From a virus: a DNA stretch of 34,550 nt. Made by a program: the position numbers and the translations under genes. The stretch lies in IMG/VR virus record IMGVR_UViG_3300036766_000187, positions 1-34,550 of that record; one strand, given 5' to 3'. The stretch's first letter is position 1; every line of letters begins with the position of its first letter. Shown here one piece after another: positions 4,449-34,550 of this stretch. The notes under the pieces were generated by a model. The model was not told the origin of the DNA, searched no databases, and saw only the letters and a program-made list of their open reading frames with translations.

Positions 4449-4643
4449 ATGGCAAAGTCCAAAAAGAAGAAAGAACAACCGCAGTGGAATGCGGGCCTTG
4501 GCAAACGGCCCCGTCACTACGTTCAGGACATCATCGAAAAATCCACCCGCAAGGAACGGGCCTCCCTGCTGGAAGAGGTTCCGTCGGAGTACCGGACATG
4601 GGTGGAAGAGTCCGTCAAGGATTATTATTGGAGAAGAGGTTGA
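4449..4643 (+). CDS. Small basic hypothetical protein
   Basis: A 64-residue protein beginning MAKSKKKKEQ with a Lys-rich N terminus and a charged helical body (YVQDIIEKSTRKERASLLEE, ending DYYWRRG). A GGTGGTGAGG sequence precedes the ATG. Its TGA stop lies inside the first copy of the 51-bp repeat, so the repeat has probably replaced or fixed its end. No family is recognised; nucleic-acid binding is only suggested by charge. Confidence 0.65.
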   Translation: MAKSKKKKEQPQWNAGLGKRPRHYVQDIIEKSTRKERASLLEEVPSEYRTWVEESVKDYYWRRG

Positions 4644-11323: not shown

Positions 11324-11669
11324 GTCCACCAAGCCAGTCTGCCCGCATGGGTGCAACACCGTCACCCGCATTCACTTGTCCGCCCCAGCCGTTCACACGT
11401 CCGGACGATCCGCCCGGATTGACTCGACGCTCAACGGACTCGCCTCACAGTACAACCTGACCGACCTCAGTAACCGGAACGGGTCCGTGGCCAGTTCCAT
11501 GCCCATGAGACCGACCGGAGGATTGCAGGCCGGTTTTGTCCCCATGGGCAACAACCCGACGCAGACCATGGCCCAACACGGACTCCTGCCGGGCAACGCA
11601 ACGGCCGACTACAAGTTCACTGGGCCGGTCCCGAGTTCAGATTCCATTGCTCACAAGAGTAACCGCTGA
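11274..11669 (+). CDS. Small protein with N-terminal Cys/His cluster
   Basis: A 131-residue protein starting MSRIKKDYRC after GTGGAGAAA. CLAHGNFESTKPVCPHGC (10-27) has the spacing of a zinc-binding knuckle. The rest is Gly/Pro/Met-rich and probably disordered (SSMPMRPTGGLQAGFVPMG). It overlaps the preceding gene's end and its stop shares a base with the portal ATG (TGATG). Phage proteins of this type beside the portal are usually minor virion or assembly proteins; the function is not established. Confidence 0.75.
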   Translation: MSRIKKDYRCLAHGNFESTKPVCPHGCNTVTRIHLSAPAVHTSGRSARIDSTLNGLASQYNLTDLSNRNGSVASSMPMRPTGGLQAGFVPMGNNPTQTMAQHGLLPGNATADYKFTGPVPSSDSIAHKSNR

Positions 11670-13276
11670 TGCTGATCCCGAAAGACGACGATGAAAGGGA
11701 AATTCTTTTCAATGACGTGATTATGAAGTGCATGGTGTCTCGCAACGAGCGTTCCGGCGAGTACGAGCGCATGCGTAATTACTACATGATGGGCACCGAG
11801 GACGGCAAGGAATGCCCGTTCAACAAGATCAACCCGCACATCGACCTGCTGACCGCCTTCTTGTTCGCCTCGGAAACCACGAAGTTCAGTATCTCCATCG
11901 GAGCCGCCGTCCCGGAAGAAGAACACAAGAAGGTCGGTGCCCTGTCGGAAGCGGTGATGGATGAGTGGTTGCGCGGCGGCGTGGACAAGACATTCTCGGA
12001 GGCGGTCACCTGGTCCTCCGTCTACAACTCCTGTTTCGTCAAGCTGATCTGGGAACACGGCATCAATCCGTACATCGTTGAACCGCAGATGATTGGCGTG
12101 CTGCGCGAAGACCTGCCCTACACCGACCGTCAAGAAGCCTTGGCCCACAAGTATTACATCACTCGCAGCGAGCTGAACCGGAAGCTGGCCCCACACCAGA
12201 ACCGGGAGCTGATCATGCAAAGGCTGTCCGCCGTCCGCCGGGAGATGGAGCAGGAACCCTCAGGCGTGCAGCGTCTGGTAATGTCGGCCTCATCGCCCAA
12301 CATGATCGGCGTCATCGAGGGTATGCCGCAGGGAACCGGTTACCGTCCCCGCGTGGGCGAAGAACTGATCGAGATGACGGAGCTGTGGGTGTGGGACGAT
12401 GAGGAATCCGACTACCTGACCGTCACCATGGCGGATCCCGGTATCGTGATCTACGACCGCAAGAATGTATTCCTGTCTGGCGAGCTGCCCTATGTTCAAG
12501 TCTGCCCGAACCCGCTCTATAACTACTACTGGGGCGCGTCCGAGGTCAACAAGCTGACCAAGTTACAGGACTGGCGCAGCCGTCGCATGGGACAGATCAG
12601 TGACCTGCTCGGACGCCAACTCAGGCCGCCCCGGTCCTTGAACGGCACCTTCGGCATTCTCGACGAGAACAACTTCGCGCTCGACCGTGAAGGCGGTATT
12701 CTGTCGTTCAGTGACCCGATGGCGAAGATCGAGGAGTTCAAGCCGAACATGCCGCAGGACGTATTTTCGGAGATTCACGAGATCGACAACATGTTCAACG
12801 AGGCATCTGGCCTGACCTCCATCATGCAGGGCGGTGGCGAGCGCGGTGTTCGCACCAGCCGTCAGACTTCGGAGCTGGCGCGGTTTGGGTCGGCCCGCGC
12901 CCGCAAGCGGGCACTGGTGATCGAGGACGCGCTCGAAAAGATCGGCACGCTCTGTCTCAAGATGATCCAGAAGTATGATGCGCGCAAGCTGCTGGATGAT
13001 GGCGGTCAGCCCTTCATTGCCAAGCAGTTCACCAGCGACTACGTGCTCAAGGTGGACGCGCATTCCAGCAGCCCGATCTTCGTGGAAGACCAACGTGATC
13101 TGGCCTTCTCCCTGTTCGAGGTTCAGGCCATCGATAAGGAAACGCTGATCGAGATGTGCAGCCCGCCGTCCGTGCACCTGCTCAAGCAGCGCCTCAAGAG
13201 GATGGAAGAGAAGGAAGCGCAGCAGCAGCAGGCGCAGGTCGCTGCCGAGGCGAAGTCCGGAGAGAAGGGGGAATAG
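11669..13276 (+). CDS. Portal protein
   Basis: A 535-residue protein with the usual portal size and location after TerL. It opens with an acidic helical segment (RNERSGEYERMRNYYM) and has the characteristic middle region (LWVWDDEESDYLTVTM, then NPLYNYYWGASEVNKL), in which portal proteins thread the DNA channel. A C-terminal helical, Gln-rich tail follows (KEAQQQQAQVAAEAKSG). It forms the dodecameric ring at one capsid vertex and docks TerL and the adaptor. Assignment is from order, length and general pattern. Confidence 0.85.
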   Translation: MLIPKDDDEREILFNDVIMKCMVSRNERSGEYERMRNYYMMGTEDGKECPFNKINPHIDLLTAFLFASETTKFSISIGAAVPEEEHKKVGALSEAVMDEWLRGGVDKTFSEAVTWSSVYNSCFVKLIWEHGINPYIVEPQMIGVLREDLPYTDRQEALAHKYYITRSELNRKLAPHQNRELIMQRLSAVRREMEQEPSGVQRLVMSASSPNMIGVIEGMPQGTGYRPRVGEELIEMTELWVWDDEESDYLTVTMADPGIVIYDRKNVFLSGELPYVQVCPNPLYNYYWGASEVNKLTKLQDWRSRRMGQISDLLGRQLRPPRSLNGTFGILDENNFALDREGGILSFSDPMAKIEEFKPNMPQDVFSEIHEIDNMFNEASGLTSIMQGGGERGVRTSRQTSELARFGSARARKRALVIEDALEKIGTLCLKMIQKYDARKLLDDGGQPFIAKQFTSDYVLKVDAHSSSPIFVEDQRDLAFSLFEVQAIDKETLIEMCSPPSVHLLKQRLKRMEEKEAQQQQAQVAAEAKSGEKGE

Positions 13277-13835: not shown

Positions 13836-14603
13836 ATGCTAATTCGTCCTTACTCTGACTCCAGTTTATTCGCCGCCAATAACCCCTGCGACGCAACCAC
13901 GGCCAATTTTCCAGCAGTAAAACATTTTTGGAAATGCGCAGAAACATCCGGCACCACGCTTACCGACGTGATGCGAGGATTGGTGTTAAGCGGTGCCGAT
14001 TCCATGACGTTCGGAACGAACTATGTCGTTCCGAATAGAACTTCAGCGGCGCAAGCTACAAAAACCGGAACAATCGTAGCACCGAATGGAAAACCGTTTT
14101 TGTTTATGTCTGTTATGGCTGGGACTACCGCTGGTTTTGGTATTGGCGATACGCTTAATGGACCCTGCCTTGCACTAGGACAGTTGGCAGCGAATCCGAT
14201 TTTGAATATTAATACTGGTATTTACCCCGGGACCGCCTACACAAGCGGTGGTGCGACTATTTATGGAAGAGGGTTGTACGTCAGCGATTATAACAACGCT
14301 TCCGGCATGCAGACATTGGAATGTACCGCCACTTCTACTTATTCGGCGAAGACGGCCACGACTACTGCCGACACAACCCCGTCAACAGCAGAGGCATTGA
14401 GTGTCAGTAATTTATCCACCCTGGAGGGTACGCTAGGAAAATGGTCCTGCGGCGTTACTGTTACGGCTCTGTATGGCGCTGCATTGATCGTGTTTAGCGC
14501 TACACCAACAGCTTTGTTCCTGCAAAGCATTATGACGTGGCACACCTATCAATGGGCAAATGGAAACAAGAGACTCTATCCAGGGTTGAGGGGAGTAGCT
14601 TAA
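13836..14603 (+). CDS. Surface-type protein, copy 1 of a related pair
   Basis: A 255-residue protein, beta-rich and full of Thr, Ser, Gly and Ala, as expected of a fibre or lectin-like jelly roll. The KHFWKCAETSGTTLTDVMRG segment (about 29-48) parallels KHFFPCDKLVNGNIIDVKGN in the next protein, and both end with a Trp/Gly-Lys-Arg-x-(Leu/Ile)-Tyr-Pro pattern (NKRLYPG here, IREIYPKAG there). Base composition is more AT-rich than the flanking head genes. Receptor or host-surface binding is inferred from composition only. Confidence 0.72.
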   Translation: MLIRPYSDSSLFAANNPCDATTANFPAVKHFWKCAETSGTTLTDVMRGLVLSGADSMTFGTNYVVPNRTSAAQATKTGTIVAPNGKPFLFMSVMAGTTAGFGIGDTLNGPCLALGQLAANPILNINTGIYPGTAYTSGGATIYGRGLYVSDYNNASGMQTLECTATSTYSAKTATTTADTTPSTAEALSVSNLSTLEGTLGKWSCGVTVTALYGAALIVFSATPTALFLQSIMTWHTYQWANGNKRLYPGLRGVA

Positions 14604-15422
14604 TTGAATTCGGCGAGGTCGGTAACGCCTTGGACTGGTGTTAATAATAGTTGGAAAGACTCAACTGTTTGTAAGCATTTTTTCCCTTGTGACAAGTTGG
14701 TCAATGGAAATATTATTGATGTGAAGGGCAATCTTATTGCCCAGGCCAACAACAATCGTGGCGGATTTTTATTGGATTCCTCTGAGAAATCTGTACTCGC
14801 CATGGGCTACGGAACCGAGTCAACGGCATTGTTGGTTTCTGGGTCGTGGGAAACTTTACCTACGAACAAGGCCGCTTTATTCATGTGTGCTGGCTACATA
14901 GACAACACGTACACCATAGATTATCAGATACGCTGCGCCATTGGTGACATCAATAACGATTTAGAAAACGCCACTTCGCAGGGATGGGGATTGGCAGATG
15001 GAGCAACCGCTGTCTTCCAACACGTAGCAATGCGTGGAGAAACGTATAAGAGTTCTTCTTCATCTTATACCGGATGCGAAAACACAGCGGTAGGGGCGGC
15101 TTCGACAGGCGTTACGTTGGCGCAAAATTCCTATTTTATCAGATACGCCATTTACCAGCCCGGCGTTCAGGTTGAGTCTAAATTTCTTACTCTTGCTGGA
15201 GCCGTATCGATTGATAGCACCACGTTACGCGGGGCCTTCCTGGATCAGGGTGGGGCGAGTTTCACCAATTCGTTTCGTATGAGTGGTTTTCGTTGTGCCG
15301 GAATCGCCCTTTATTATTTCCAAACTTCTACGGTCCCATCCGATTATATTACTGCCGTAAACTATAACGGTGCCCTGTGGAAGAGAGGGATAAGAGAGAT
15401 TTATCCGAAGGCTGGATGGTAG
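14604..15422 (+). CDS. Surface-type protein, copy 2 of a related pair
   Basis: About 272 residues if the TTG right after the previous stop is used (GAGGGGAG upstream). The first internal Met is 67 residues in and would cut off the conserved opening. KHFFPCDKLVNGNIIDVKGN and the closing KRGIREIYPKAG match copy 1, so the two arose by duplication and then diverged strongly. The fold is predicted to be beta-rich and extracellular. Alternatives are a concanavalin/LamG-like carbohydrate-binding domain or a head fibre. Confidence 0.7.
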   Translation: MNSARSVTPWTGVNNSWKDSTVCKHFFPCDKLVNGNIIDVKGNLIAQANNNRGGFLLDSSEKSVLAMGYGTESTALLVSGSWETLPTNKAALFMCAGYIDNTYTIDYQIRCAIGDINNDLENATSQGWGLADGATAVFQHVAMRGETYKSSSSSYTGCENTAVGAASTGVTLAQNSYFIRYAIYQPGVQVESKFLTLAGAVSIDSTTLRGAFLDQGGASFTNSFRMSGFRCAGIALYYFQTSTVPSDYITAVNYNGALWKRGIREIYPKAGW

Positions 15423-15462
15423 AAGGGCTACAAGGTTATTACTCCGTATTCCGGGGTGGCAA

Positions 15463-15487
15463 TAAATAAATGTTGCACTTATACGCT
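15463..15487 (+). repeat. 25-bp direct repeat, copy 1
   Basis: Identical to 15884-15908 at the end of the RHH gene, 421 bp downstream. It contains TTGCAC and the half-site TTATACGC. Copy 2 includes the RHH stop codon (AAATAA), so copy 1 looks like a remnant of the same gene end. Confidence 0.85.
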
Positions 15488-15546
15488 GCGTCGGTGATTC
15501 GCAAGATTGCGGAACGGCTGAGCTAATCCTGCCGGTTGTTGCAAAT

Positions 15547-15578
15547 GTGTATAATCTGAGTATTATCAGTTTATACGC
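15547..15578 (+). promoter_or_regulatory. RHH gene promoter with 32-bp palindromic operator
   Basis: A 32-bp interrupted palindrome runs from GTGTATAATCTGA to TCAGTTTATACGC, with 11 of 13 outer positions paired in each arm. It contains the TATAAT -10 box (15550-15555), and the predicted start near 15562 is at its centre. A repressor bound here would block transcription, which suits autoregulation by the RHH protein. The -35 is weak. Confidence 0.65.
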
Positions 15579-15599
15579 ATTTATCCAGGAGACCGCACT

Positions 15600-15890
15600 A
15601 TGAGCCAAATGAACCGCCTTAATTTCGATTACACCACCGAAGGCATGGAGCAGCTCGATGACCTCAAAAAGAAGCTTAAAGTCGGCAGCCGTGCCGAAGT
15701 GGTGCGCTACGCGCAGGGCATCCTGAATTGGGCCGTCCAGCAAGCAGAACAAGGCAACCAGCTTATTTCTGTCAACAGCAGCTCCGGCACGGTCAAGGAG
15801 CTCTCCGTGCCGCCGCTCGAAGAGATTCGCTCACACGCACTCAAGCACGCCGCTCACTTGGACATGGCCGTGCTTGCAGTGGGTAAATAA
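15600..15890 (+). CDS. Ribbon-helix-helix type regulator
   Basis: A 96-residue protein after CAGGAGA. The N terminus fits a MetJ/Arc-like fold: a beta strand (MNRLNFDYT), helix (GMEQLDDLKKKLKV), turn (GSRAEV) and second helix (VVRYAQGILNWAVQQAEQG). Such proteins bind DNA as dimers through paired strands. It has its own promoter embedded in a long palindrome and lies between 25-bp direct repeats that carry the same half-site, so it is probably autoregulatory and may also control the next promoter. As a single-gene cassette in a structural region it looks like a moron. Confidence 0.75.
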   Translation: MSQMNRLNFDYTTEGMEQLDDLKKKLKVGSRAEVVRYAQGILNWAVQQAEQGNQLISVNSSSGTVKELSVPPLEEIRSHALKHAAHLDMAVLAVGK

Positions 15891-15908
15891 ATGTTGCACT
15901 TATACGCT
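15884..15908 (+). repeat. 25-bp direct repeat, copy 2
   Basis: Identical to 15463-15487. It begins inside the last codons of the RHH gene and continues through TTGCAC (a possible -35) and the TTATACGC half-site. Confidence 0.85.
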
Positions 15909-15922
15909 TTATTGTGTATATA
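15894..15922 (+). promoter_or_regulatory. Candidate promoter of the capsid module
   Basis: TTGCAC (15894-15899), a 17-bp spacer containing TTATACGC, then TATATA (15917-15922). The match to consensus is moderate. Transcription would start near 15930, just before the palindrome at 15942, giving a leader of about 155 nt to the 14-residue peptide. Confidence 0.45.
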
Positions 15923-15941
15923 TTTTTTGAACATTAACGAA

Positions 15942-15953
15942 GTGAGCGCTCAC
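15942..15953. promoter_or_regulatory. Perfect 12-bp palindrome GTGAGCGCTCAC
   Basis: A complete 12-bp palindrome about 20 bp downstream of the candidate -10 box. Its core equals the symmetric LacI-family operator core. A binding protein is not identified in the window; a host repressor is possible. Chance occurrence cannot be excluded. Confidence 0.45.
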
Positions 15954-15991
15954 ACCCATTGGATAAGAACACGTTGATGACTGGTTGTTCT

Positions 15992-16067
15992 GTTCCGGGA
16001 AGGTTTTCCGCTTAAGCGGGATGACAGCCCGGAATAGACGGGCGAGAACCGGGCTTAAACCCGGAAC
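15992..16067 (+). ncRNA. Multi-stem structured leader RNA
   Basis: An outer stem GTTCCGGG (15992-15999)/CCCGGAAC (16060-16067) encloses two hairpins: TTCCGC-TTAA-GCGGGA (16006-16021) and GCCCG-GAATAGA-CGGGC (16027-16043). A competing hairpin CCGGG/CCCGG (16049-16064) uses the outer stem's 3' strand, so two folds exclude each other. The element ends 6 nt before the AGGAG of a 14-codon gene. It fits a regulatory leader; no known riboswitch class is recognised. Confidence 0.5.
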
Positions 16068-16084
16068 TTCAGAGGAGAGCAACT

Positions 16085-16129
16085 ATGGCCCGCAAGTCTC
16101 GGCGTGGTAAGCGCAAAGCCAAGCGCTAA
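16085..16129 (+). CDS. 14-residue Arg/Lys-rich peptide
   Basis: ATG...TAA encoding MARKSRRGKRKAKR, preceded at good distance by AGAGGAGAG. Nine of 14 residues are Arg or Lys. It lies between the structured leader and a strong terminator upstream of the head genes. Two readings are possible: a leader peptide whose translation controls the terminator, or a tiny nucleic-acid-binding product. A related basic tail (KKRNLSRRAKRGG) ends the 46-residue protein at 17063. Confidence 0.6.
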   Translation: MARKSRRGKRKAKR

Positions 16130-16136
16130 GCAATAC

Positions 16137-16174
16137 GGGGGGATCGGGGATTCCCAGTCCCCCCTCTTTTATTT
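16137..16174 (+). terminator. Strong intrinsic terminator or attenuator
   Basis: GGGGGG (16137-16142) pairs with CCCCCC (16159-16164), with inner GGG/CCC pairing possible, followed by TCTTTTATTT. It stands between the 14-residue peptide and the next head gene, so downstream expression needs read-through or another promoter. Confidence 0.8.
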
Positions 16175-16197
16175 AACAGGAATTTCAGGAGGCTGAC

Positions 16198-16656
16198 ATG
16201 CCATTAAACGTCGTCCAAAGCCGTCTTTCCAATGTGCAGCCGGCCCAGCTTTATCAGCAGGGCGTGGTTGGTTTCCGCCGTCTTCTCGGTGTTTTGTACG
16301 GCGCGAACATGAACGTCACGACCGACAACGCCATTCCCATGGTGCTGGTCCCCGAGATCGCTGCCGGGACAGCCCGCTACATCGTGCGCGGCGTGCAGGT
16401 CACGAACGCCTCGATCTCGCTGACGACCGCCGCTGGTGGTTTTTACACCGCCGCCTCGAAGGGCGGGTCGGCAGTCGTCGCTTCGACGCAGGCTTACTCG
16501 GGCCTGACCGCCACCACCAAGAACCTTGATTGCACGCTGGCCGCTGTGGCGGGCACGGACATCAGGACGGAAGGCACGCTGTACCTGAACCTGACGACTG
16601 GTCAGGGCGCAGCCGCTACGGCTGACGTTTACATCTGGGGGGAGATTCTTCCTTGA
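16198..16656 (+). CDS. Small structural protein (head decoration-like)
   Basis: A 152-residue protein after TCAGGAGGCTGAC. It is Ala/Thr/Gly-rich and beta-rich (RYIVRGVQVTNASISLTTA, then TADVYIWGEI), the usual look of a head decoration or minor capsid protein. It is the first gene after the terminator and precedes scaffold- and capsid-type genes. No named family is recognised. Confidence 0.72.
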   Translation: MPLNVVQSRLSNVQPAQLYQQGVVGFRRLLGVLYGANMNVTTDNAIPMVLVPEIAAGTARYIVRGVQVTNASISLTTAAGGFYTAASKGGSAVVASTQAYSGLTATTKNLDCTLAAVAGTDIRTEGTLYLNLTTGQGAAATADVYIWGEILP

Positions 16657-17066
16657 GTGATACGGACTTCAAGGATGCCCCGGAGACAAGCTGGCTCAGG
16701 GAGAAACTGACTGGCGCGAAGGGGTCTGTGACGGGTTCGCAGAACAAGGCGGAAGCGGAAGCCTTGAAGGAACTAGACACTCCCTCGACGGGAGAACCCA
16801 TGTCTCCGGCGATGGGAGAAGAAGGCACGGCGCATCCGAAGCCAATGGGCGGAACACCCGGCGGCGCTCCAGACCTCCATCTGAATCACGTTAACTCAGC
16901 AGTGAGTTCACTTGAACAGGCGTTGACCGCCGTGGGCAGCAGCTCCGCCGCAGGTCGCGCCATCCTCGATACGCTCAGAACCTTAAGCAAACACTTCGGC
17001 GACAAGAAGGCTGAAACACCTTCGGTTGCCCCTGAACTTCGCAGCCTGATGGGGGGGCAGAAATGA
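16653..17066 (+). CDS. Disordered/helical virion protein, paralogue 1
   Basis: A 137-residue protein from a TTG that overlaps the previous stop (TTGA). The first 75 residues are low-complexity and Gly/Pro-rich. Residues about 80-115 form a helical domain (AVSSLEQALTAVGSSSAAG, then ILDTLRTLSKHFGDKK) clearly related to the protein at 17200 (AITMLERALPSLGSHTEDG, then VLTSLKALSKHFGETK). It is probably a minor head or portal-associated protein; the role is unknown. Confidence 0.72.
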   Translation: MSDTDFKDAPETSWLREKLTGAKGSVTGSQNKAEAEALKELDTPSTGEPMSPAMGEEGTAHPKPMGGTPGGAPDLHLNHVNSAVSSLEQALTAVGSSSAAGRAILDTLRTLSKHFGDKKAETPSVAPELRSLMGGQK

Positions 17067-17203
17067 ACATATTCAGAACACCAGGATCAGGTTCCGGAGC
17101 CGGTGTCGGCGGCAAGCCGATCGGACCGGGTAACGCTCCGCGAACCAATGAGCGCAAGAAAAGAAACTTGTCCCGCAGGGCCAAGCGGGGTGGCTTTAGA
17201 TGA
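17063..17203 (+). CDS. 46-residue Gly-rich basic protein
   Basis: Starts at an ATG overlapping the previous stop (AAATGA) and ends in TGA overlapping the next ATG, so it is coupled on both sides. The N-terminal half is Gly/Pro-rich (PGSGSGAGVGGKPIGPG) and the C-terminal half is strongly basic (ERKKRNLSRRAKRGGFR). It lies between two paralogous genes. A nucleic-acid-contacting virion peptide is plausible but unproven. Confidence 0.65.
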   Translation: MNIFRTPGSGSGAGVGGKPIGPGNAPRTNERKKRNLSRRAKRGGFR

Positions 17204-17607
17204 GCATGCCCCCAGACCAGATGGCCGCAATGATGGGCGGACAAGAACCGGGAGCCGGTGCACCGCAATCCGCGCCCGCACCGGGATCAGCGCCGAGTGG
17301 TGCGCCCATGTCCACGCCGCAGCCAGCCGAAGGCCAGAAGCAGGAAGCCATCGTGAACGTGCAGATGGCGATCACCATGCTGGAGCGGGCTCTGCCGTCG
17401 CTCGGCAGCCACACCGAGGACGGACAGATTGTCCTGACCTCACTCAAGGCGCTCTCCAAGCACTTTGGCGAAACGAAGTCGCAAGACCTGATTCCTGCTG
17501 AGTTGCAGATGATGATGCAGCAGGCCCAGCAACCGGGGCAGGCACCGGGGCAGGCATCGCCCGGAGCAGTCCCGGCCCCTACCAGTCCATCACCCGGAGG
17601 TATTTAA
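17200..17607 (+). CDS. Disordered/helical virion protein, paralogue 2
   Basis: A 135-residue protein, ATG overlapping the preceding stop. A Met/Pro/Ala-rich start (PPDQMAAMMGGQEPG) leads to a helical domain shared with the gene at 16653, including LSKHFGE/LSKHFGD, then Gln-rich and Pro-rich tails. The pair with a small basic gene between them indicates local duplication. The function is probably structural. No signal peptide or catalytic motif is seen. Confidence 0.72.
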   Translation: MSMPPDQMAAMMGGQEPGAGAPQSAPAPGSAPSGAPMSTPQPAEGQKQEAIVNVQMAITMLERALPSLGSHTEDGQIVLTSLKALSKHFGETKSQDLIPAELQMMMQQAQQPGQAPGQASPGAVPAPTSPSPGGI

Positions 17608-17608
17608 C

Positions 17609-17794
17609 ATGTCCAAAGAATTCATGTACCCGAAGGCCGGGTCGATCCGTAACCCGCTCGACAACGGAAAGACCAACGGCGTGATTGTTAACCCGCCCCG
17701 CATGGGTGAGTTCGGCGGTCTCAACAAGTTCAAAGAAAAGAGTGGTCCGTACAAGAACGACAAGACCATCAAGAAGCCCGGCGGCAGTCGCTAA
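17609..17794 (+). CDS. Small basic structural-region protein
   Basis: A 61-residue protein starting MSKEFMYPKAGSIRN, with GGAGG 8 nt upstream. Pro-, Gly- and Lys-rich with little secondary structure (NPPRMGEFGGLNKFKEKSG). No family is recognised. It lies directly before the scaffold-like gene, so a small head-assembly role is a guess from position. Confidence 0.68.
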   Translation: MSKEFMYPKAGSIRNPLDNGKTNGVIVNPPRMGEFGGLNKFKEKSGPYKNDKTIKKPGGSR

Positions 17795-17809
17795 ACGGAG
17801 GAAATGACC

Positions 17810-18325
17810 ATGAGCCTCGAAGACATTGACGACGAAACCCGCGATGAACTGGCACAGCTTGCCAACAAGCTGGCGAACAGCCCGTCCACCCGTAACGAGT
17901 TCCTGAGACTGGCGAGAAAGGCCAGTCCGGATATGTCGATTCCGGAACTGGACATGCAGGACAACATGAACGCGGCCATGAAGCCGTTCCAAGACAAGAT
18001 CAGCTCTCTTGAGAATAAGCTTTATGAGAAGGAAGTCACCGACAGAATTATGTCCAATCGTCAGAACTTGATCGACAGCGGCAAGATCAGCCGTGAGGAC
18101 ATTCCGGAGATTGAAAAGCTGATGGTCGATAAGAAGATTCCGGATTACAACACGGCGACTGAATTCTACCGTCTCCAGAAGGAATCCGCGAAACCCACAC
18201 CGGGCATGTACCAGCCGAAAACGCCCATGGTGGATGTGAAGAAGATCGGCAACAACCCAACGATGTGGGCGCGCGACGAGGCCAGTAAGGCGATTAGCGA
18301 ACTCATGCAAAATCGCAACCACTAA
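17810..18325 (+). CDS. Scaffold-like head assembly protein
   Basis: A 171-residue acidic, helical protein immediately before the major capsid gene, the usual place of a scaffold. Of two in-frame ATGs six bases apart, the second (MSLEDIDDETRDEL) is 8 nt from GGAGG and preferred; the first is only 2-3 nt away. A coiled segment (MKPFQDKISSLENKLYEKEV) lies mid-protein and a helical C terminus (RDEASKAISELMQNRNH) may contact the coat. Assignment is by position and character. Confidence 0.65.
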   Translation: MSLEDIDDETRDELAQLANKLANSPSTRNEFLRLARKASPDMSIPELDMQDNMNAAMKPFQDKISSLENKLYEKEVTDRIMSNRQNLIDSGKISREDIPEIEKLMVDKKIPDYNTATEFYRLQKESAKPTPGMYQPKTPMVDVKKIGNNPTMWARDEASKAISELMQNRNH

Positions 18326-18336
18326 AGGAGCAAACC

Positions 18337-19353
18337 ATGAGTTTATTGGGCACAGGCATTATCCCGACTGGAGCCGTCGGCGCAGAACTTACTAACGTCA
18401 CGCGCCGCGCGTTTATTCCGAAGATGGTCGTGCAGCTTTACAACAGCACCCCGCTGTTTGCGGCGCTGCTGTCGAACTCGCAGACCGCGTATGGCGGTGT
18501 ATCGAGCATCACGGCACCGGTGCAGGGTCAGCAGTTCGTGACCGCGCAGTGGTCCGGCTACGACGGCAGTTTCAACCAGCCGTCCGTGCAGCAGGGCGCG
18601 TTCAACGCGGAGTTCAACCTGAAGCTCATGGTGACCCCGATTCCGTTCCTCGGGATGGAAGGCGCGGTACAGCTCGACCACACCGTCATTCCGCTGATCG
18701 AGGCGCGCATGAACGACGCCACGAACACGATGATGGACACGATGGCGACGGCGCTGTACAACAACACCACCAACAACTCGGCCTTCATCGGTCTGCCGGG
18801 AGCCATCGACGATGGCACCAACATGGTGACCTACGGCAACATCAACCGTAACACTAATGTCTGGTGGAAATCGAAGGTGTACGCCGCCGGTTCGATCAAC
18901 CCGACCCGCGCCAACGTCCTTCAGTACATCAGCGGCACCGTCAAGAATGGCGCGGAACTGCCGACCTTCGGCGTTTGCGGCTTCGGCACCTGGACACTGC
19001 TGGCACAGGACTTCGTGGCACAGGAGAGTTATCAGATCACGCCGGGCGCATCGTTCGATTCCGGTGCGTCCAAAGAAGGCGGCCCGCGTGCAGCGTTCCA
19101 GGCTCTGATGGTAGGCGGCATTCCGATTTACGCCGATCCGTACTGCCCGGAAGGTTCGCTGTACCTCATTAACAGCAACTACCTGAACCTGTATGTCCAT
19201 GAACAGGCCAGCTTCGCCTTCACCGGCTTCCACAGCACCGTCCCGAATTTCCAGCTTGGGTATGTCGGCGCGGTCTGCACCATTGCGGAACTGGTGAGCG
19301 TCAAGCCGAAGTCGATGAGTCGTGTCAGCGGCTACAATTCTTTGACCCTTTAA
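18337..19353 (+). CDS. Major capsid protein
   Basis: A 338-residue protein after AAAGGAGCAAACC. Length, position after the scaffold-like gene, and strong GC-rich optimal codon use fit the coat protein. The body is alpha/beta with conserved-looking segments (RAFIPKMVVQLYNSTPLFAA near the N terminus, FHSTVPNFQLGYVGAVC near the C terminus). No protease gene is nearby and no long delta domain is apparent. The coat fold (HK97-type) is assumed from tailed-phage context. Confidence 0.82.
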   Translation: MSLLGTGIIPTGAVGAELTNVTRRAFIPKMVVQLYNSTPLFAALLSNSQTAYGGVSSITAPVQGQQFVTAQWSGYDGSFNQPSVQQGAFNAEFNLKLMVTPIPFLGMEGAVQLDHTVIPLIEARMNDATNTMMDTMATALYNNTTNNSAFIGLPGAIDDGTNMVTYGNINRNTNVWWKSKVYAAGSINPTRANVLQYISGTVKNGAELPTFGVCGFGTWTLLAQDFVAQESYQITPGASFDSGASKEGGPRAAFQALMVGGIPIYADPYCPEGSLYLINSNYLNLYVHEQASFAFTGFHSTVPNFQLGYVGAVCTIAELVSVKPKSMSRVSGYNSLTL

Positions 19354-34275: not shown

Positions 34276-34286
34276 CCAAGATCACA

Positions 34287-34550
34287 CCCGACCCTGCCGC
34301 CGACCATCCCGGCCCAGCCGCCGACCATCCCGGCCCAGCCGACGACCCAGCCCCCGACCCAGCCACCGGCCCAGCCGATGGTCCTGCCCCCGACCCTGCC
34401 GACGGCCCAGCCGATGGCCCTGCCCCCGACCCCGCCGACGGCCCAGCCACCGGCCCAGCCCCCGACCCTCCCGACGGCCCTGCCACCGGCCCCGCCCCCG
34501 ACCCTGCCGATGGCCCAGCCCCCGACCACGCCGACCACACCGACATCGCT
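34287..34550. repeat. GC-rich 12-bp repeat array (right part)
   Basis: About 20 units of 12 bp of form GCC-NNC-GRC-CCN, for example GCCCCCGACCCT and GCCGACGGCCCA. Most unit differences fall at the same third-base positions. The plus frame reads Ala-x-(Asp/Gly)-Pro repeats, and two minus frames are also open with low-complexity Gly/Ala/Ser/Trp products. Minus-strand GGG runs are frequent. It joins the left array if the molecule is circular. Confidence 0.85.

Follow-up and report, generated by a model that had tools for sequence, protein, structure and literature searches.

The 14-codon ORF ahead of the head genes in the window (the whole stretch of DNA analyzed here, a 34,550-base virus record in which portal, terminase, and major head protein are recognizable) belongs to a conserved family of very short polybasic genes that occupy the portal-capsid interval in a large clade of uncultured tailed phages. 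This assignment is well supported; selection, position, and tandem copies together argue strongly that genes of this kind exist at 166 distinct loci, a wider set that includes contigs found by a pattern scan. The microgene product is probably a working phage protein rather than a mere switch before the capsid genes, and the first-pass annotation, which had proposed a candidate attenuator at this place, saw something real and read it too narrowly.

Polybasic microgenes between portal and capsid

In the window, the portal protein gene (11669..13276, + strand; PF23899 SU10_portal, E 6.9e-8; phrog_1216) forms the upstream border of the portal-to-capsid interval, and the major head protein gene (18337..19353, +; phrog_9953, E 8e-37) provided the anchor for finding relatives. 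Between them lie the microgene (16085..16129, +), encoding MARKSRRGKRKAKR, its terminator, and then a gene for a 152-aa protein (16198..16656, +) that has no family match in PHROGs or Pfam and 14 relatives among viral contigs. The nearest named phage records are MW202825 and MW202753, two uncultured genomes from Manatee Spring with 71–73% identity to the window in the capsid and 50–53% in the portal. The named phage record collection yielded no isolate with a clearly related capsid, the next matches being weak (Mx8, E 8e-4; MW202803, E 0.01); the capsid had no match in the plasmid records searched, and its matches in MAGs were five contigs from different phyla, probably binning noise and thus no basis for assigning a host. 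The window also holds several repeats at a distance from the interval. A 72-nt sequence containing TTGACTTACCGGTAACATACTC occurs in three copies at 4634, 5121, and 6823 with 81–100% identity, perhaps as shared promoters, and an operator-like 20-mer around TGACCTCCAAGGTCA occurs in five copies (at least 75% alike) near both record ends, at 2571, 2985, 3313, 32805, and 33248. The ends themselves (1–119 and 34279–34532) have a common repeat sequence in 12- and 24-nt steps, 60–75% alike, which may indicate a join or a terminal repeat.

Relatives were gathered by the capsid protein and by the 16198 protein, giving 254 records, 239 of them with a capsid match; the microgene survey used 170 of these 239 (window included, some contigs present twice), the rest having less than 1.9 kb upstream. 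Filtering for an ATG start, 8 to 24 codons, at least 40% Lys plus Arg, and a ribosome site, we found one or more microgenes in the portal-to-capsid interval of 138 of the 170 loci and of 100 of the 122 distinct ones, these 100 carrying a single copy in 38 cases, two in 44, and three in 18. Since 32 of the 170 loci are without an ATG microgene by this filter, a figure that somewhat overstates absence because the filter misses a GTG-start copy in L100 and less basic 20-mers in L172 and L251, heads of this type can evidently do without the peptide. In L172, L251, and L171, the first microgene upstream of the capsid gene is replaced by a 20-residue gene of lower basicity (MYKQPTMPMKRVTPRRTKRT and similar).

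A scan by pattern only, with a degenerate MARKxRKxRKxRK-stop, matched at least 120 contigs. Of the 120 contigs examined, all had an expected neighbor in the expected order and 0 had the wrong order, with portal or terminase upstream in 109, a homologue of the 17200-gene or of the capsid downstream in 111, and both sides in 100. Microgene density was 1.52/kb within the interval (446 in 293,025 bp) and 0.0063/kb outside it (32 in 5,084,819 bp), a ratio of about 240 with copies not removed; this density, like the 142-row capsid tree and the pseudoknot and co-occurrence counts given below, includes pattern-scan contigs, i.e., loci that were in part chosen by the microgene pattern. On that tree, microgene absence needs two changes, and the window falls within a supported 7-row set, all with the microgene and all without the pseudoknot; in another tree, the window clusters with L002 and L018. 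Within the 4 kb upstream, distant capsid relatives (Mx8, MW202803, and a TM7 phage) had no microgenes, bar two chance ORFs inside larger genes. Gene finders commonly omit ORFs of 10–15 codons, and such ORFs are too short for family-library scans (proteins of <20 residues). The GenBank annotation of MW202825 and MW202753 has opposite-strand hypothetical ORFs over the microgenes (L096 8246–8506; L097 4740–5038).

The microgenes are mostly 10–15 codons long and often contain a repeated triplet of small residue, Arg, and Lys; the 104 distinct peptides have a median of 13 residues and a median Lys plus Arg content of 60%, with acidic residues at 3 of 1334 positions. Across 180 genes, pN/pS was 0.48 in frame versus 1.35 and 1.34 in the other two frames, as estimated from related, partly saturated pairs, and amino-acid-level constraint is seen in the reading frame only, as protein-coding genes require. 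The Lys and Arg codons are mixed (CGC, CGT, AAG, AAA; AGA and AGG are rare), Lys and Arg interchange between relatives, and charge is kept in many columns. Given this mixture, the ORF offers no run of codons able to sense one amino acid, and codon mixing together with Lys/Arg interchange at kept charge supports a functional polycation and argues against a starvation-sensing leader. Very short, strongly basic, and located in the capsid module, the family resembles small basic nucleic-acid-binding virion peptides in these three respects.

Leader and terminator of the window's microgene

The leader's candidate promoter, read from the sequence, is TTGCAC-N17-TATATA at 15894..15922 (+), with TGTG before the second hexamer; it is letter-for-letter identical in contig L082, resembles the consensus only, and was unreported by a sigma-70-type scan. 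Between it and the leader lies a perfect 12-bp palindrome, GTGAGCGCTCAC (15942..15953), which is operator-like, kept in L082, and matched once versus 0.01 expected in shuffles, the pattern having been picked after sighting. Upstream, a 25-bp direct repeat, TAAATAAATGTTGCACTTATACGCT, at 15463 and 15884 (421-bp spacing) flanks a cassette (15463–15908) that contains promoter-like sequence and a gene for a 96-aa protein (15600–15890, phrog_8557); the near-identical L082 has a single copy of the repeat and is without the cassette.

Folding energies and shuffles mark out a structured 5′ leader (15990..16067, +). Its best fold pairs 15990–15999 with 16028–16037, 16006–16011 with 16016–16021, and 16049–16053 with 16060–16064. 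The first-pass annotation had described an 8-bp outer stem enclosing two hairpins and a competing hairpin that uses its 3′ strand, and all of these are present: GTTCCGGG (15992–15999) can pair with CCCGGAAC (16060–16067) over 8 bp with two hairpins inside, and the hairpin ACCGGGCUUAAACCCGGA takes the 3′ strand of that stem. The energies favor the competitor, and the outer-stem form is the minor alternative, at −34.5 kcal/mol when forced versus −37.0 kcal/mol for the best structure and with a pair probability of about 0.009. Compared with shuffled sequence, the fold gave z = −3.25 over 86 nt, with 1 of 200 shuffles as good, and z = −3.93 over 206 nt including the terminator, with 0 of 200 as good.

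The 5′ part of the leader, scanned as a pattern against viral contigs, occurred in one other contig, the near-identical IMGVR_UViG_3300032275_000228 (L082/L254). Over 15884–16260, four bases separate this contig from the window (16015, 16069, 16077, and 16081). None of them touches a main stem of the best structure, and 16069 belongs to a weak closing pair with a probability of about 0.5. A helix of the 206-nt fold that masks the Shine-Dalgarno sequence (15984–15991 with 16076–16083) was considered and rejected, as the L082 changes at 16077 and 16081 break two of its pairs with no compensation. Conservation of the stems in relatives, which the first-pass reading would predict, was not borne out: by inspection, the leaders of L002 and L252 differ from that of the window, and in L018 and L003 the microgene starts almost directly after the upstream gene. 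The L002 (1792–1816) and L252 (3586–3612) microgene leaders have, by inspection, a 9-bp hairpin in common whose arms (GGCUGCAUA/UAUGUGGCC and GGCUGAUUU/AAAUUGGCC) differ in a complementary way; its loop contains CCU, which could pair with the ribosome site.

A stable fold with two nearly equal alternatives might suggest a new class of ligand-sensing leader RNA, a riboswitch controlling the operon, but we consider this very improbable. The Rfam 15 covariance models gave 0 matches in the window at gathering level and implausible matches only in permissive scans, and the leader is found in two contigs versus 166 distinct microgene loci. With no Rfam match and one other contig, the leader was rejected as a conserved riboswitch.

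The ribosome-binding site AGAGGAG (16071..16077, +; AGAGGAT in L082) precedes the microgene, and an intrinsic terminator (16137..16174, +; identical in L082) follows it. The terminator stem (16137–16164, −21.5 kcal/mol) begins 7 nt after the stop codon and is followed by the T-rich tail TCTTTTATTT; a simple consensus scan of 14000–18500 found 5 terminator-like sites versus 4.7 expected and is uninformative on its own. The order of ribosome site, Arg/Lys-rich ORF, terminator, and head genes is present in the sequence just as first described. A translation-coupled attenuator would give this layout a regulatory meaning: a ribosome at the microgene stop would block the terminator 7 nt on, head transcription would follow microgene translation, and the leader would tune initiation. 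We regard this as plausible for the window taken by itself, though rather unlikely. The 7-nt offset is suitable, the two leader forms are just 2.5 kcal/mol apart, and a sigma-70-type scan from the terminator to the head protein gene found no promoter-like site on the + strand. According to PMC4824070, translation in E. coli almost fully repressed an intrinsic terminator located a few bases past a stop codon, and termination was near maximal beyond 30 bp; the same paper states that efficient termination can occur within a coding region's first 100 bp. The stem in the window ends about 80 nt past the microgene start codon, at which point the ribosome may still be trailing.

The comparison with relatives also weighs against attenuation. 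Stop-to-terminator spacing is not kept, being 7 nt in the window versus 18 nt in L252, and L002 has a different hairpin pair; the layout as a whole is not conserved. The leader is unconserved, whereas the peptide is under constraint at the amino-acid level and recurs, frequently as tandem copies, at many loci that have no leader of this type. In 195 of 279 loci, a pseudoknot and TTGAC box stand in place of the terminator. The ORF lies closely before an intrinsic terminator, as in attenuators, but no codon run or tract for a regulating metabolite was found in it. In the folds computed here, with two leader sequences to compare, the alternative pairings sit 5′ of the ORF or over the ribosome site and leave the terminator arms unused. 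The attenuator reading is partly supported. What survives of the proposed attenuator before the capsid genes is therefore its layout in the window, its 7-nt spacing, and the lack of a promoter-like site found downstream; its generality fails with an unconserved leader and a peptide conserved without it.

The 3′ boundary in relatives

On their 3′ side, the microgenes are followed by T-tailed terminators in the window and L252 and by paired hairpins in L002. A filter found a hairpin and U-run after the last microgene in 16 of 100 stretches, and by inspection both stem and loop of the hairpin behind the stop codon differ among loci (GUAA, GCAA, UUUU, UUCG, UUAGU), the feature to set beside the fixed-loop boxA/boxB hairpin of lambda N. 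Where the window has its terminator, most relatives have an H-type pseudoknot ending a few bases before TTGAC. Helix 1 has 4–8 bp, the first loop 0–4 nt, and helix 2 5–9 bp, these ranges being the finder's limits; there is usually no base between the helices, and the third loop is often A-rich. An unanchored finder scored 75 of 100 stretches better than all 50 shuffles, a few of them judged spurious (window, L252, L099). The match in the window uses the terminator stem, and a stricter whole-genome scan found none, so a pseudoknot in the window was rejected.

Anchored on TTGAC, the pseudoknot was found at 195 of 279 loci in 78 distinct strings, of which a few look implausible (e.g., L018, L100, L172). 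Counted at distinct TTGAC sites, it occurred at 113 of 489 in the interval versus 62 of 3000 (2%) elsewhere and 80 of 2260 in shuffles, the per-locus chance rate being somewhat above the per-site rate because loci average more than one TTGAC each; the energy limit is passed on the reverse strand too at 20 of the 113 sites. Among 46 selected examples, pair types differed on both sides at 13 of 14 helix positions, a degree of covariation that is overstated because the finder selects pairing sequences; when 23 stretches were aligned with MAFFT blind to structure, the helices were misplaced and the alignment yielded no usable covariation count. The complete genomes L373 and L374 each have one sense-strand pseudoknot in the interval, and L373 has two further matches inside the portal gene. 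Rfam gave no match in 14 relatives, a permissive scan giving implausible matches only. The TTGAC box resembles a −35 element and may start the head operon, although a −10 element or hexamer behind it was not enriched over shuffles.

Among distinct loci, pseudoknot and microgene were both present in 125, the microgene alone in 41, neither in 29, and the pseudoknot alone in 2; of these two exceptions, L025 has a microgene by the interval survey, and the L172 match sits on a T-run terminator. This linkage is weak evidence because microgene absence amounts to two tree events and some of the loci had been retrieved with the microgene pattern. The same reservation applies to the idea that an Arg-rich peptide binds its own transcript, in the manner of lambda N or of an autoregulator, acting on the hairpin or pseudoknot to control head-gene termination or translation. 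Arg/Lys-rich peptides do adjoin structured RNA in most relatives and co-occur with the pseudoknot, but the helices vary and mainly their architecture is kept, a pattern more in line with a mechanical role than with sequence-specific binding, and the pseudoknot is missing from the window, L002, and L252, all of which carry microgenes. A 14-mer also leaves no room for the rest of N. We consider RNA binding of this kind quite unlikely.

In the microgene-free L102, L105, L128, L136, L251, and L172, a GGGCA...TGCCCC hairpin and T run, then TTGAC, occupy the same place; by eye, this order is seen in 6 of 8 microgene-free stretches and is less clear in L047 and L049. Given a T-tailed hairpin at the pseudoknot's place in these relatives, the pseudoknot is most simply explained as marking where the upstream transcription unit ends on its 3′ side. 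A stronger proposal is a two-part module, in which tandem genes for polycations of 10–15 residues and a covarying, single-copy H-type pseudoknot would together set head-operon transcription or join in genome packaging, the window being a variant with an ordinary terminator at the pseudoknot's place. This we think unlikely. If true, the module would be an RNA-peptide element, and its genes would rank with the shortest protein genes that selection maintains. We found no description of the microgene family or of the pseudoknot in the literature as judged by titles and abstract openings, and the pseudoknot beside the microgenes is a clear target for RNA-structure and 3′-end work.

Proposed role and comparison with known systems

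The explanation we prefer, tentatively and with a little less than even confidence, is that the microgene encodes a polybasic head-module protein from a short, dose-set transcript. We infer that the peptides would be made in large amounts late in infection and would neutralize nucleic-acid charge in or around the assembling head, perhaps by coating DNA. In the window, the microgene would be the first cistron of the head operon, after the promoter-like site, structured leader, and ribosome site. The terminator would end most transcripts and leave the peptide in excess over the head proteins, and read-through, possibly aided by a ribosome stopping 7 nt before the hairpin, would supply the head genes. 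For most relatives, this boundary is formed by the H-type pseudoknot with its A-rich third loop, followed by the TTGAC box; the pseudoknot is most likely mechanical, serving as a stable 3′ end or an insulator. If the peptides are packaged, the counter-ions of tailed-phage DNA would come in part from the phage's own genes, a point relevant to the containment of pressurized DNA in capsids.

The pseudoknots of the preQ1-I and SAM-II riboswitches and of the T4 gene 32 leader are likewise H-type. The pseudoknots described here resemble them in having two interlocked helices, usually with no base between, and an A-rich third loop, but they have no Rfam match, vary in helix sequence, are not found in the window, and stand after a gene and before the TTGAC box, outside the leader. 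The window's layout, with a short-ORF stop a few bases before an intrinsic terminator and an operon behind it, resembles pyrBI-type attenuation as presented in PMC4824070, in which a ribosome near a leader stop codon represses the terminator. Unlike in pyrBI, the microgene peptide is itself conserved and multiplied, spacing and terminator are unconserved, and there is no codon run for a single amino acid. In T7 gene 10 and M13 gene VIII, a dose-setting terminator follows a many-copy product and some polymerases pass it. Such an arrangement is predicted for the window from its sequence, whereas most relatives have the pseudoknot and TTGAC box instead. Protein J of phiX174-like microviruses and adenovirus protein mu are small basic DNA-binding virion peptides, and the gene for protein J sits in the capsid module. 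The microgene peptides are like them in being very short and mostly Arg/Lys and small residues. Protein J belongs to an ssDNA phage and mu to an animal virus, and such proteins exceed the microgene peptides in length or are released from a precursor; the microgenes, known here from genes alone, are 10–15 codons long, often tandem, and carried by tailed phages.
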